This document shows, in pieces, positions 16,987-23,587 of a stretch of DNA of 64,000 nt. How positions within the stretch are numbered: position 1 is the first letter of the stretch; each line of letters starts with the position of its first letter. The notes beneath the pieces were generated by a model. That model saw only the letters and a program-made list of their open reading frames with translations, was not told where the DNA came from and did not search any database. A program made the translations under genes and the position numbers. This DNA is from Halobacteriales archaeon QS_4_69_225 (lineage in GTDB: Archaea > Halobacteriota > Halobacteria > Halobacteriales > Haloarculaceae). Location: assembly GCA_003020965.1 (NCBI GenBank), contig PXRL01000012.1:62001-126000 (forward strand), read 5' to 3'.

Positions 16987-19900
16987 CTACAGCCAGTCGT
17001 CCGGCTTGGTGTCGTAGTCGATCTCCGTGGCGGCGATGTTTTCGATTTCCTCGTCGGGGAGGTCCTCGGTCTCGAAGCTCTCGCCGTCGAAGCGGATCAG
17101 CTTGCCCTGCTCGGTCGGCTCCGGCTCCTTGTCGCGGCGCCGCGCCACCTCGATGTCGTGTTCGTCCAGCTCCTTGACGACCGTTTTCAGCGCCACCGGC
17201 CGCCCCCACAGCTCGAACACCCGCTCGAGGGTCTGTTTGGCCTCCCGGACGTCCAGCTGGACGCCGTTGTACTGGTGGGCCAGGAGTAGCTCGTTGCGGT
17301 TCCGGAAGTTGCCGTCCTCGACCGCGACGGTCGGCTTCCCGAAGTTGGTGAACTGCAGCATCAGCTTCTTCTTCACGTCGGCGGCCTCCGAGGAGGTCAC
17401 CCGGAAGTCCTGAGTCGTGTGGGTGTACTCGTAGGTGAAGTAGTCGTTCTCGTCGACGAACTCGGGGGTGAGGAACTCGTCGAGGAACGTCACGTCGTTG
17501 TGGCTCTCGCGGATCTCCCGCATCCGGTTCCAGCCGGCCGTCCGGTCGACGTCGGCGACGGCCGCCTCGGCGTCGTCGTACCGCCCGGTGTCGAAGAGGT
17601 ACCGCGAGGTCTGTTCCAGTTCCTCCTGGCCGACCCGCTTGAGGAACCCCCGGTTCTGGGGCTTCGCCAGCGAGTAGTGCCGCTCGGCGAGCCCCTCGTA
17701 CGTCAGCAGCTTCCAGGGGTACTGCTCGACGTCGATCTCGCCCGCACGGGCGGCCTCGAGGTTCTCGGCGTCGACCCGGGGGTCGTCGGCCTCCAACTCC
17801 TCGAGGAAGGCGACGGGGTCGGCCATCTCCGGCGCCGGCTCCAGGGCCGACAGCACCGCGTCCAGATCCACCGTGTCGGAGAAGTTCCGCCAGGTGACGC
17901 CCTCCACGCGGAGCAGGTGCTCGACGACCTCCCGGCGGTTCTGCCGGTTTTCGATATACTGCCACAGCTCGAACCCCAGCTTGTAGGGGTTCAGCCCCGG
18001 CGAGCCGAGCACCTGCGCCATGTGGTCGGCGTAGGAGATGAACTCGTCGGCGGCCGCGAACCGCTCGTCGGCCATCATCATCGACTCGTGGTAGGAGTTG
18101 TGGTTGACGAGCCCGGCGGCGGCGTACCTGTGGGTCTCCTCGACGGAGATGTCGTACACCGTTCCCGTCCCCTCCTCGATGGCGACGATCTCGTCGGTCC
18201 ACGACTCGTCCTCGAACCACTCGAGCCCGTCGAGGTACTCCGCCAGCGCGTCCGCCTTCGACGGGTATCCGAACCCGATCTCGTCGGCGAAGACCGACGC
18301 CGACTCGCCGGTGAGATGGACGTGATAGCAGCCGTCGTGCTGTTCGCGGCGCCGCGAGAGGACCCCGAAGTTGGTCAGAAGCAACTGGACCAACTTGCCG
18401 AGCGCCTCGCTTTTCGTGCTCAGTATCGCGCCCTGCTCGCCGGCGTAGCCGTCGGCGTCGAACAGCCCCCGGATGAACTCGGCGACGACCGACTTCGGCG
18501 AGCGACGGATACAGGCCGGAACCGTCTTCTCGCCGGCGGCTTCGCCAACCGGAAGACCGACCTCCTCGGTCAGGAACTCCTTCAGATTCTCGGAGTACGC
18601 GTAAACGCGCCACCGAGACCCCTGCTCGGAGACGGTCGGCTGGACGCCGAACAGCTCGTCGACGAGGCCGGCGAACTCCTCGGCGTGTTCCTGCGTTCCG
18701 CTCGTGAACCCGACGTGTCTGGAGTTCGAAGACAGGTGGCCGTCGCCGACCAGCAGGCCGAGGAACCGACCCATCGGCTCGCGGACCTCCTCCGGGGTCA
18801 GTATCGGGTCGCGCCCGCTGATGCTCTGGTCTTCGCCCGCATAGGACTCCAGGGCCGTCGATATCTCGTCGGCTCGGCGCGCACGACCGGTCCGTCGGTA
18901 CCGGAGTACCGTCGAGACGGAGACGCCGGCCGTCTCCGCGACGTCGTCGAGGGTTTTCCGGGTGGGATTCGACCACTCCAGCGGGACGTACTCGTCGGGC
19001 CAGGTTCCGTTCCCGCCCGACACCGCTATCTCGTCGCCGGTCGACAGCTCGTCGAGCCGTATCCAGCTCCCGTCGGGGCGCCTGATCCGGTGGTTGTTCG
19101 ACCCGGTCAGCTCGAAGCCGCGCCGGGTCTCCACCGTCACCGTGTCGTGGCCCTCGATGACGTTCGAGTCGTACACGTCCCGGGTCGTCTCGCCGTCGGA
19201 AACCGGGCGGTGTCCGTCGACGACGTCCCGCATCGGAACGAGCCCCGCCGTCGAGAACACCGGCGTGTCCGGGTCCACGCAGGCCCACCCCTCGTTCATC
19301 ACCTTCGTCGTCGGCCCGCCGTCGTCGTCGCTCATCTCGTCGACGAACTCCTCGTCGAACACCTCCCGGCGGACGTCCTCCGAGAGGTCCATCTCCTCGA
19401 GCTTCTCGGCGAACTCCTCCGGGGTGGCGGCGTCGTCCTGCCACTCCTGGGCCGTCGAGAACTCCCGGTGCTGGTCGACGTTGTCCTCCAGACACAGCAC
19501 GTGGTCGATCCACTCCTCGACGGCCTCCCGGGAGATCTCCGGGTCGTCCATGTACTCGGCGACGGTCTCGGAGTGCCGCTCCAACATTGCGGCGGCGTCC
19601 GGCGACGCGCCGAACATCCGGAACCACTCGTTGTTCTTGAAGAAGTCCGCGTGGGCCTCGACGTGGGTGATGACCGCCTTTTGATCCGCCATGTCGTTCG
19701 ATTCCTGCAGGAAGGCGTTGGAAGGGTCGTCGTTGTTGACGATCTCGAAGGCCTTCCCGCCGAGGAACTGCGTCTGTTTCTGCTGGCGGTCGTAGCCCAT
19801 CCCCCACCGCCAGTGGGGGTAGCGGTGCTGGAAGCCGCCGTAGGCGATCAGTTCGTTCATCTCGTCGTAGTCGATCACCCAGTAGTTGACGTCGAAGGGC

Positions 19901-19998
19901 TCGAGCCCGAGCTTCTCGGCCAGCCGGTTGGCCTCCCGGGCCGGCTCCTCCAGCTCCTCGGCGATGCGCTGCTTTCTGATGCGGTCGTCGGTGCTCAT
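16987..19998 (-). CDS. spoVR: SpoVR-family protein interrupted by an intein
   Basis: The precursor has 1003 residues; after removal of a 395-residue intein the mature SpoVR would have 608, the normal length. The N-extein (residues 1-239) starts [20 protein letters not shown] and ends at the strongly conserved NEGWA; the C-extein resumes [13 protein letters not shown] at residue 635. SpoVR proteins accompany PrkA kinase and YeaH in stress and starvation responses, but their biochemical role is not established. The start overlaps the yeaH stop (ATGA), so the gene is the last of the prkA-prkA-yeaH-spoVR operon. Confidence 0.93.
18097..19281 (-). mobile_element. Intein with LAGLIDADG homing endonuclease inside SpoVR
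   Basis: 395 residues. It begins with Cys240 ([20 protein letters not shown], block A) and has a block B TGSNNHRI. The endonuclease motifs are [11 protein letters not shown] (block C, about 412-422) and [11 protein letters not shown] (block E, about 508-518), with a block D Lys-Pro pair between (EKTVPACI). It ends [21 protein letters not shown] followed by Ser +1, so Cys1, penultimate His, terminal Asn and Ser+1 are all present and splicing should work. Between blocks B and C lies a LacI-like helix-turn-helix ([20 protein letters not shown]), probably for target recognition. The insertion falls inside the most conserved SpoVR motif, as expected for homing. Confidence 0.93.
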
Positions 19999-21317
19999 GA
20001 CTCGTCGTCCTCCGTGCTGAGGATGGTGTAAATCGCGTCGACGACGTCCTCCGGGCCGTTGACGTAGGCGACGGCGACGTTGCCCCGCTCGTCGAAGTGG
20101 TCGTCGACCTCCTTTGCGTGCGTGGCGTTGATGGCGTTGCCCGACGGCTGCGTCTCCACGTAGGCGTGGAGGTTCGCCGGGATCTCCGCCATCATCGGGA
20201 TGACGTTCTTCTCGGTGTCGTTCGAGGAGTTCTCCGAGTCGCCCGCGGCGAACACGTAGCGGTTCCACTCGCTCCAGGGGTACCGCTCCTCCAGCACCGC
20301 CGCCGCCAGCTCGTAGGCGCTGGAGATGCGCGTGCCGCCGCCCGACCGGATGCCGAAGAACTCCTCGCGTTCGACCTCCCAGGCGTCGGCGTCGTGGGCG
20401 ATGTAGACGAACTCGGCGTTGTCGTACTTGCCGGTGAGGTACCAGTCGAGCGGCGTGAACGTCCGCTCGACCAGCTCCCGTTTGGCCTGTCGCATCGACC
20501 CCGAGACGTCCCGGATGTTGACGACGACGACGTTCTTCTCCCGTTCCTCGATTATCTCGGGGTAGCGGTAGCGTTCGTCCTCCCGGCGGAAGGGGATCTG
20601 GTCGACGCCCTCCCGGCGGATGCGGGCCGCCGTCGACTCGCGGTCGACCTCGGCTTCCATCTCCTCGATGGAGTCCCAGCGGCCCCGCTCGTCGGCCGGC
20701 AGCGAGTCGTAGGCCTCCTCGATCCAGGCCCGCGAGACGGGGACGTTGTTCCGGCGGGTCCACTCGTACACCCTCGCCGGCCCCCAGCCGTCGACCCGCA
20801 GGCCCTCCCGGACGTACTCCTCGTCGAAGTCCATCGCCAGCTTCCGCTTGAGGCCCTTTTTGAACAGCTGCTCGAAGTCCAGCGTGCTCGCCGGCCCCGT
20901 CCGGGTCATGTCCGTGAAGTCGCCTTCCTTCTCCTCGACGACCTTCTTGCCTTTCGGCTCCAGGTCGAGGCCGAGCTCCTCGTCGAGCTCCTGGGCGAAC
21001 TCCTCGGGATCCATCTCGTAGTACTCGTGCTCGCCGGGTTCCTCGCCTGGATCGCCGTCCTCGTCGCCGTCGCCGGGCTGGGGTTCGGGCTCGCCGACCG
21101 GGTCGCCGACGTCCGGCGTCCCGCCCTGGCCCTGGCCGACCCCGCCCTGGTCGCGGGGGTCGTAGACGAACTCCGGCAGGTCGACGATCTTGATGGGGAT
21201 CTTCACCTCGTCCGGCCGGGACTGCCCCAGGTCGCCGTACTGGATGAACTCCGAGAGGTCCTCCCGCTTCGCCTCGCCGACCTCGCGGTACCGGTCGAGG
21301 TCGTCTCTCAGTCCCAT
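19995..21317 (-). CDS. yeaH: YeaH/YhbH family (DUF444) VWA-domain protein
   Basis: 440 residues. An acidic N-terminal half with a Gly/Pro/Gln-rich linker (about residues 55-95) is followed by a von Willebrand A domain from about residue 240. The metal-ion site reads [14 protein letters not shown], with later conserved [12 protein letters not shown]. In E. coli yeaG (PrkA)-yeaH are induced together in starvation; YeaH is thought to act with the kinase. The ATG at 21317 overlaps the prkA stop by 10 bases, and its own stop overlaps spoVR. Confidence 0.92.
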
Positions 21318-23587
21318 CGGTAGCTCACCTGGCCCATGACGTGTCTGCTGGTCAGCTCCGCCGACGCCGGCGAGTAGCCGAACATCTCCTGGAGGTTCTC
21401 GATGGTCTTTTCCTTGATGCGCTCGGTTTCGGTGCCGGACGGCGGGTCGTCCCACTGGCTCGGCTCGAGGTCCTCGTAGGTCCGGCCGACGTCGTCCCAG
21501 TCGTGGCTCCCCAGAACGGTCTCGATGACCGGAATCTCCCGGGGATCGACGTCCGACACCCGGAAGTCGGCGTCGCGGTTCCGCCAGGCGTGGCGGTTCA
21601 GCGCCGTGATCACCTTCTCCTCGCGGAACTGTCGGGGGCCCTGCTCGGCGACGGCGCCGTCGTAGTCGCTCTCGTCGAACCGGCCGAGGTGCTCGATCTC
21701 GAACACCTTCATCTTCAGCGGGTCCGGCTCCTCGAGTTCGCCCCGCTCGTTGGTGATCTGCTCGCCCTCGACGGCGGCGTACACGTGCTCGATGTACTCC
21801 TCGACGGTCGCCTCGTCGACCCGCTTGTCCCGCATGATGGCGTCGACGACGTCGTCCTCCTGGCGGCCGAAGACGTGGTTCTTCACCGGCACCAGCCGGT
21901 TCTCGTACTCCGTCCGTTCGGTACCGGAAAACACCGGCGCCTCGTCGAGTCGCTCGGCCATCGCGTTCAGCAGGTCCCGCGGCATGATCACCTCCTCGAC
22001 GTCGAGGTCGGCGTGGTGGCGGTCCGTCTCCTCGTGCAGCAGGTCCGCGATGACGTCGCGGGTGTAGGTCACGGGGATGCCGCCGTCGCCTTCGTCGGCG
22101 TCGCCGAAGTCGAACTCCTCCTCGTAGCGGCGCTCGTCGCCGTCCTGGAGGTAGCCGCGGTCGTACACCAGCGCCTTGTCGACGAGGTCCAGCCCCGGCG
22201 GCAGCGACTCGGCATCGAGCCGCGTCACCACCGCGTACAGCGCCGCCGCCTCGATGGCGTGCGGCGCCAGCTCCCGCTCCCGGACCGCGCCGTCGGCGCC
22301 CCGCACCGAGATGGACACCGGCTCGCGGATGCGCGTTTCGAGCTGCTCGTAGCTGCCGGCCTCCCAGATTTCCGTCTCGTTGGTCAGCTCCCGCCGGACG
22401 AGCTCGGCCTCCAGCGAGAGGTTCAACAGGTAGGTGAACTCGTGTTTGTCCAGCCGGCGCTTCAGCGCCTTCAGCGGGTCCGACCCCTCCATCTCGGCGT
22501 GTTTGTTCAGCTGTGCCTCCAGGTCCGGGTTCGAGATGATCACCATCTGGGTGTCGACGTCCATCCCGATGCCCTTGTCCAGCTTCACCGACCCCTCGTC
22601 GGGGACGTTCAGCAGCTTCTGTAACAGGTCGGCGTGCTGGGCGGCGTCCTCGACGACGGTGAGCAGGCCGTTGCCCTGCGAGAGCACGCCGTCGTAGCTG
22701 AACGCCTGGGGGTTCTTCCGGCCCCTCGAATCGAGCTGCTGTAACATGCCGGCCATCCAGGAGCCGACGAGCCGCTCCTTCGGGGAGCCGTCGTCCTCGC
22801 TGTGGAGGACGCCGATGCCCTGGCCGACGTCGACGACGAAGTTCTTCACCCGGAGGTGTCGCTCGTCGGTGATCGTCGAAAACAGGTCCTCGACGCCCTG
22901 CCGGCGGTACTGCTCCTCGAGGTGGTCGTAGGCCTCCCGGCTGAAGGGGTCCAGCTCGGTCTCGAGGTGGACCGGGATGTGGTCGTCGAGCCCCTCGTTG
23001 AGGTCCGCGAGCAGCGCCTCCCGGACCTCCGGCGGGAACACCGACAGCGGGTGCGCCTGCACCGGCGACTCGTACCAGTCGTTTTCGTCCGGCTCCGGGT
23101 CGTCGCCGTAGGTGAGCCCCGCGGAGCTGTCGACGCCGGAGATGTTCCACTCGACGGTGTAGCGGCGCCCGGCCTCGGTCTTGGAGTACTCCCGGAGGCC
23201 GTTGATGAGACACCGCTTCAGCTCCGATTTGCCCGTCGCCGTCGGCCCGTCGAGCCAGAGGATCTTCTCTTCCTTGCCGCGGCGGGCGGCGATCGACCGG
23301 AGGTCGTCGACGAAGCTGTTCAGTACCTCGGTGTTGCCGAGGATGGCGTGTTCGCCGTCGTTGTGCGGGTCGTCGAAGAAACGGTATCGCTCCTTCCGCT
23401 CGCCCTCCTCGACGACGGTCCGGGTGCCGGCGGCCTCGATGGCCGACAGCAGGTACTTCGAGGCGTGGGCCGCCGAGGCGGGGGTCTCGAAGATGCGCTC
23501 CAGGTACGCCGAGATCGACATCGGCGGCTCGTACGTCTCCTGCAGGGAGTCGTCGGCCCGCTCGATGTACGAGTCCTCGACGGTCAT
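21308..23587 (-). CDS. prkA: PrkA-family serine protein kinase (second copy in operon)
   Basis: 759 residues, intact. It starts [20 protein letters not shown], has an AAA+ Walker A motif GPTATGKS at residues 114-121, and the PrkA C-terminal domain. The family phosphorylates proteins on Ser/Thr and is ATP-dependent; AAA+ protease-like activity has also been proposed for bacterial PrkA. Haloarchaea usually carry two adjacent prkA genes followed by yeaH and spoVR, as here. A hairpin-rich block of 513 bases separates it from the other, damaged prkA, and one hairpin (23607-23626) ends only 20 bases before the start codon, which could affect translation. Confidence 0.93.

Follow-up and report, generated by a model that had tools for sequence, protein, structure and literature searches.

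The question raised by this locus is how a 395-residue segment comes to lie within the conserved NEGWA/SYHES motif of a haloarchaeal SpoVR protein, and what keeps it there. The window, i.e. the whole 64,000-nucleotide stretch that was analysed, carries a spoVR precursor gene of 1003 amino acids, insert included (16,987-19,998; this and all other features below are on the minus strand), whose product contains the conserved motif and was assigned to the SpoVR family PF04293 (Pfam, 2.4e-53); this agrees with the preliminary description, which had placed the host outside replication and nucleotide metabolism. The gene is preceded on the same strand by a YeaH/DUF444 gene (440 amino acids; 19,995-21,317), which overlaps the spoVR start, and by a PrkA (YeaG-type) gene (759 amino acids; 21,308-23,587), forming a prkA-yeaH-spoVR operon. 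In the available text of one study YcgB is grouped with YeaG and YeaH, and antimicrobial-peptide sensitivity is mentioned there as unpublished (PMC2375023). The insert corresponds to precursor residues 240-634 (Cys1 to Asn395; 18,097-19,281) and lies between an N-extein ending in TKVMNEGWA (19,282-19,998) and a C-extein beginning with SYHES (16,987-18,096, stop codon included), with a host serine at position +1. It is read here as an intein predicted to self-splice and to invade empty spoVR genes by cutting them, a reading to which a probability of about 0.8 is given on the basis of the sequences compared below.

The residues characteristic of inteins were present at both ends of the insert. 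The N-terminal splicing (Hint) part (approximately residues 1-100; 18,982-19,281) contains C1 and S61-N-N-H64, in which serine replaces the threonine of the TxxH-like block B, and the C-terminal splicing part (approximately residues 360-395; 18,097-18,204) contains THRY and VNHN, with H394-N395 at its end. Between them, the LAGLIDADG endonuclease part (approximately residues 163-355; 18,217-18,795) has two motifs of 11 residues, one with D180 (18,733-18,765) and one with D275 and D277 (18,442-18,474), D180 and D277 being the catalytic aspartates. When the intein alone was screened against Pfam, LAGLIDADG_3 was matched in two stretches (3.9e-20) and Intein_splicing was matched at 4.5e-9 (36.7 bits, with a cut-off of 35.8), while of the NCBIfam models TIGR01443 (C-terminus) scored above its cut-off and TIGR01445 (N-terminus) below; endonucleases of the I-DmoI and PI-SceI type were also matched. 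A complete intein at 18,097-19,281 had been proposed in the preliminary description, and its boundaries proved exact, with C1, H394-N395 and Ser+1 intact and both endonuclease motifs apparently so. Judging from these residues, splicing would follow the standard route through Cys1, Asn395 and Ser+1. The GC content of the intein was 67.6% compared to 65-66% for the exteins, and third-position GC was 90% compared to 96%.

An AlphaFold model of the intein, built from an alignment of 47 same-site inteins (pLDDT 93.8, pTM 0.89), placed three helices (residues 111-118, 122-131 and 137-148; pLDDT 73-89 by blocks) after the N-terminal splicing part and before the endonuclease, which they adjoin as a helix-turn-helix (HTH)-like module. 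This predicted LacI-like HTH (residues 108-148; 18,838-18,960) scored 22.0 bits (1.4e-4) against the PF00356 cut-off of 27, while PF00356 does appear in the precomputed annotation of two relatives, P0046 and P0274; the LacI-like domain described earlier was thus borne out as a set of model helices and fell short as a Pfam assignment. The top fold matches among solved structures were the TliVMA inteins 7qss (E 2.6e-24) and 7qsu, followed by PI-PkoII, PI-PfuI, PI-SceI and I-DmoI, and 7qsu was also the top sequence match among solved inteins (2.8e-8). The TliVMA intein of Thermococcus litoralis likewise combines a Hint part, a LAGLIDADG endonuclease and an HTH-like accessory domain (TMq 0.67), but its host is an A-type ATPase subunit, identity to the SpoVR intein is approximately 20%, and its accessory domain links the endonuclease to the C-terminal Hint part according to the available text of PMC8966425, whereas the HTH of the SpoVR intein precedes the endonuclease. 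The same text reports that HTH-like accessory domains in the TliVMA and PI-TkoII inteins alter DNA cutting. The HTH of the SpoVR intein is an accessory module of this known type. Similar endonucleases (21-33% identity) occur in ribonucleotide reductase (RNR) and other inteins (L092-L110, and viral L131-L143), which differ in host, several of their downstream flanks resembling ribonucleotide reductase by eye. The window's own genome (G000) gave 11 LAGLIDADG_3 matches in all, that of the window included; besides L147, loci L145, L148-L151 and L153 lie in inteins whose hosts are MCM (at two places), A-type ATPase subunit A (on two contigs), an enzyme resembling PEP synthase and a helicase of the XPB type.

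Same-site inteins were collected by motif, giving 192 distinct sequences (127 from protein matches, 64 from loci, and the window). Since all 192 could be aligned along the window intein, chance is excluded as the source of the intein call. C1, H64, H394 and N395 were kept in 192/192, D180 and D277 were each present in 185, and the HTH region was filled in 181. Homing is not active everywhere, because 10 of the 192 were without one or both catalytic aspartates. Values of dN/dS for the HTH and endonuclease were 0.08-0.15 in all nine pairs tried, dS being saturated in some, and these codon comparisons indicate purifying selection on the endonuclease part in 9/9 pairs. Four same-site inteins with a decayed endonuclease or a lost HTH (P0264, P0276, P0319 and P0307) were observed and resemble stages of a homing cycle: in P0264 (336 amino acids) and P0319 (323 amino acids) the HTH is gone and the endonuclease motifs are damaged while the splicing ends are kept, and in P0307 (369 amino acids) the HTH is gone and the LAGLIDADG motifs are kept.

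Within the window's family the insert was held by 13 of 146 genomes, while 117 had an empty site as judged by pattern, including the homologous alleles G133 and G127, from which the in-frame insert is missing; 14 further genomes lacked a strong SpoVR match, judged by best E-value, and G139 and G140 fell in neither count. The insert is not, then, a general domain of haloarchaeal SpoVR, which upholds the preliminary description on this point. One family genome showed two empty spoVR sites (G112:C232 and G112:C324), representing either two copies or contamination. A count by the pattern NEGW[AS]C, which gave 8/392 phylum genomes (window included) compared to 3 for a reversed control pattern, was set aside.

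In wider searches, 119 of the best 120 of 617 protein matches were SpoVR-bearing according to Pfam, and in the genome collection SpoVR was the host in 58 of 77 matching loci, with both splice flanks visible in 54 and one flank in four (L084, L088, L090 and L091). By record title these 58 comprised 21 from Halobacteria, 22 from Myxococcota, seven from Planctomycetota, two from Acidobacteriota, and one each from Pseudomonadota, Bdellovibrionota, Armatimonadota, Chloroflexota, Actinomycetota and a bacterium without a phylum name; the bacterial records are mostly metagenome bins whose names are possibly wrong, and those from Chloroflexota and Actinomycetota are one-flank loci. YeaH and PrkA were upstream in 21/21 haloarchaeal loci, while of the 37 bacterial loci, many on short contigs, 14 had both, nine had YeaH only and 14 had neither. 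Among viral contigs in IMG/VR, 33 loci were matched; in 20 of them, representing 10 distinct inteins, the intein is preceded by NEGWA or NEGHA and followed by serine, with YeaH upstream in 20/20 and PrkA in 10/20. The phage tail sheath family PF04984 was found in three of the 13 viral records examined (of these 20 loci), and terminase PF03237 in none of the 13, a fragment with no match being uninformative. A tblastn search of 50,697 phage records with a viral intein returned 31 weak matches (<60% identity), none annotated as SpoVR, and plasmids returned 241 weak matches (<60%), the matches listed being LAGLIDADG or RecA inteins. In viral contigs such as L117 (3-5911) the prkA-yeaH-spoVR operon is present with the intein within spoVR; past the operon in L117 (7065-9209) is a long open frame which by eye resembles RuvC-type nucleases such as Cas12 or TnpB.

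Such a distribution could have arisen by transfer, or the intein could have entered haloarchaeal SpoVR long ago and been inherited vertically, with loss from most lineages. In an unrooted intein tree of 65 sequences, one branch (support 100/100) separated all 22 from haloarchaea from the others, and as a single clade they are what vertical inheritance would give. The presence of the intein, however, required at least 10 changes on a tree of 209 exteins, and the nearest bacterial copies were 59% identical to the haloarchaeal ones as inteins compared to 36% as exteins; in addition, the nearest empty alleles have alanine at +1 and tryptophan at +3, whereas precise loss would leave serine and histidine. 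We regard vertical inheritance as improbable. Intein identity exceeded extein identity in 704/704 bacterium-haloarchaeon pairs (22 x 32 rows, after removal of a bacterial row whose extein was short), in 220/220 haloarchaeon-phage pairs and in 269/320 bacterium-phage pairs, while the corresponding figures within groups were 152/496 for bacteria, 13/45 for phages and 174/231 for haloarchaea. Appearing across domains, this excess implies that the intein is not simply slower-evolving than its host and matches the prediction of transfer; these identities suggest transfer between archaea and bacteria. The haloarchaeal inteins shared a branch (support 100/98) with those of three Myxococcales bins named CSSed, a label which we take to denote soda-lake sediment. 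The simplest reading of the tree is that the intein came into haloarchaea from a myxobacterial relative.

The flanks of the window copy were compared with those of the two nearest empty alleles. Outside a 21-nucleotide patch around the insertion point the window gene was 97.2% identical to G127 and 94.9% identical to G133 (51/1806 and 93/1806 nucleotides differing, respectively), while within the patch it differed at 9/21 positions from G127 and at 4/21 from G133. The firm signal is the downstream one only, because the two empty alleles themselves differ at 5/21 positions, all upstream. In the first 12 nucleotides of the C-extein (18,085-18,096) the window had four differences from both G127 and G133 (P 2.6e-4 and 2.5e-3); both empty alleles read AYWES where the window reads SYHES, i.e. 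alanine is replaced by serine at +1 and tryptophan by histidine at +3. The nearest inteins among the matches listed, P0002 and P0003 (80% identity), are flanked by NEGWA/SYHES. Under the mechanism proposed, the endonuclease would cut an empty spoVR, repair would copy the intein from an intein-bearing allele, and a very short co-conversion tract would exchange alanine for the serine required at +1. The flank pattern fits recent homing of this kind, with a tract of about ten bases. An older polymorphism, in a recipient which already read SYHES, can also explain the patch: SYHES or SFHES was found in empty alleles of the window's genus (the empty G121 reads SYHES), and the five upstream differences from G127, which also separate the two empty alleles, may be G127's own.

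Among empty sites of the family the +1 residue was alanine or valine in 61/118 and serine or threonine in 57/118, while occupied sites had serine in 13/13 (Fisher 1.9e-4, a test which is partly tautological, as splicing needs serine, and which ignores kinship); of 88 empty sites in the bacterial set, 85 had serine or threonine. A similar situation is described for the haloarchaeal MCM-d intein, for which the available text of PMC10643990 gives proline at +1 in most empty sites and serine in occupied ones. Both are haloarchaeal homing inteins whose empty sites often carry a non-splicing +1 residue; they differ in that the MCM-d host is a replicative helicase and in that spoVR empties have alanine rather than proline.

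The window allele also lacks 159 nucleotides (53 codons) relative to its relatives, with a junction at 19,309-19,310 showing 1 nucleotide of microhomology. The gap corresponds to residues 231-283 of the relatives, is in frame and ends 28 nucleotides upstream of the insertion point. The spliced product would be of the 608 residues predicted earlier, which stands as a length, but is 53 residues shorter than the 661 of the two closest empty alleles. The missing segment holds 10 of the 90 columns that are invariant across 42 SpoVR proteins, so that not all blocks of PF04293 are present, and internal loss of the segment was seen in the window protein alone among 231 scored (those of 235 proteins with the motif; of the four in which the segment seemed absent, three were fragments starting at the motif). 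Because 53 conserved residues are lost, the spliced SpoVR is probably impaired. No clear sign of relaxed selection was detected on the window spoVR (10 synonymous and nine nonsynonymous changes, compared to 20 and 12 on the G127 branch). A separate anomaly, possibly an artefact of assembly, was noted in P0236, a SpoVR of 725 residues in which a large internal stretch is duplicated up to the NEGWATYWHSYM motif.

The 53-codon loss may stem from faulty repair of the cut made in homing, an account to which we would give somewhat less than even odds. Shortened target plasmids, reflecting end-joining losses after endonuclease cutting, are reported for Haloferax in the available text of PMC10643990; plain end joining, however, takes out the cut site itself, whereas this gap lies 28 nucleotides off the insertion point. 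The loss could also belong to the metagenome assembly, the true allele giving a normal 661-residue SpoVR after splicing. The allele is known from a single assembly of 28 contigs, approximately 89% complete, and the loss is in frame and unique among the 231 proteins. Apart from short chance matches, the segment was found nowhere else in the window's assembly, while it was of full length in 4/4 relatives, and a junction with 1 nucleotide of microhomology is unlike repeat collapse. Assembly error is a possibility to be taken seriously, at less than even odds.

The same deletion bears on whether the intein is kept as a switch, with splicing of SpoVR set by salt, redox or temperature and so gating the stress operon. 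The insert does interrupt a motif whose conservation extends from bacteria to phages, in a gene of the prkA-yeaH-spoVR operon, and conditional splicing is recorded for other inteins in the available text of PMC5790916. The patchy presence of the intein in its family, the purifying selection on its endonuclease part and a window host protein without 53 conserved residues all argue against a regulatory role, which we consider highly improbable; nothing was found in support of the dependence on salt, redox or temperature suggested in the preliminary description. A reading of the SpoVR active site was dropped, as the AlphaFold model of the intein-free relative P0122 had a pLDDT of 60.7 and a pTM of 0.38.

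Two tryptophans, W291 and W295 (P0122 numbering), frame the insertion site and are invariant in 87 bacterial SpoVR proteins, while in Natronomonas-like empty alleles each has repeatedly changed to histidine, the two changes occurring together in none of 114 proteins. Among 85 columns without variation in bacteria whose majority residue is unchanged in 114 haloarchaeal empties, the most changeable were W295 (16 changes) and W291 (nine); the next had five, and 67 had none. Altered sites occurred in 9/17 cases in the window's genus compared to 2/101 elsewhere in the family, in a search set biased to the genus, and NEGHA at the splice motif was also found in viral intein-bearing copies. Two of the Natronomonas-like SpoVR proteins, P0122 and P0152, are publicly recorded as 'AbrB family transcriptional regulator', likely a misnomer. 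A wider scenario could be drawn in which one selfish allele moves among Halobacteria, bacteria and tail-sheath phages, empty alleles repeatedly shed Ser+1 and in Natronomonas also both tryptophans in an arms race, and the window is an invasion caught in the act, with Ser+1 restored by co-conversion, botched repair, and a host protein that splices yet is broken. As a whole this scenario is speculative and rather unlikely, and because of the clustering in one genus, the viral NEGHA and the biased search set the arms race is retained as a lead only.

In the open-access literature searched, no paper was found in which SpoVR and an intein are paired. The survey of Soucy et al. (2014) lists 24 halobacterial intein alleles in 13 genes, with patchy presence and horizontal spread as seen here, and SpoVR is absent from the 13 genes of Table 1 in its available text (PMC4071816); some same-site proteins are already labelled as SpoVR with an intein in databases. 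The SpoVR intein is a new allele, in a new host, of a known type of element, with an unusually broad spread. Annotated SpoVR proteins of 900-1,080 residues are often intein precursors. Occupied and empty alleles that are 97% identical, together with the flank differences and the deletion, make homing and its cost testable in a haloarchaeon. The list of intein hosts gains one outside replication and nucleotide metabolism, and a single site occupied in archaea, in several phyla of bacteria and in viral contigs provides a tracer of cross-domain gene flow.
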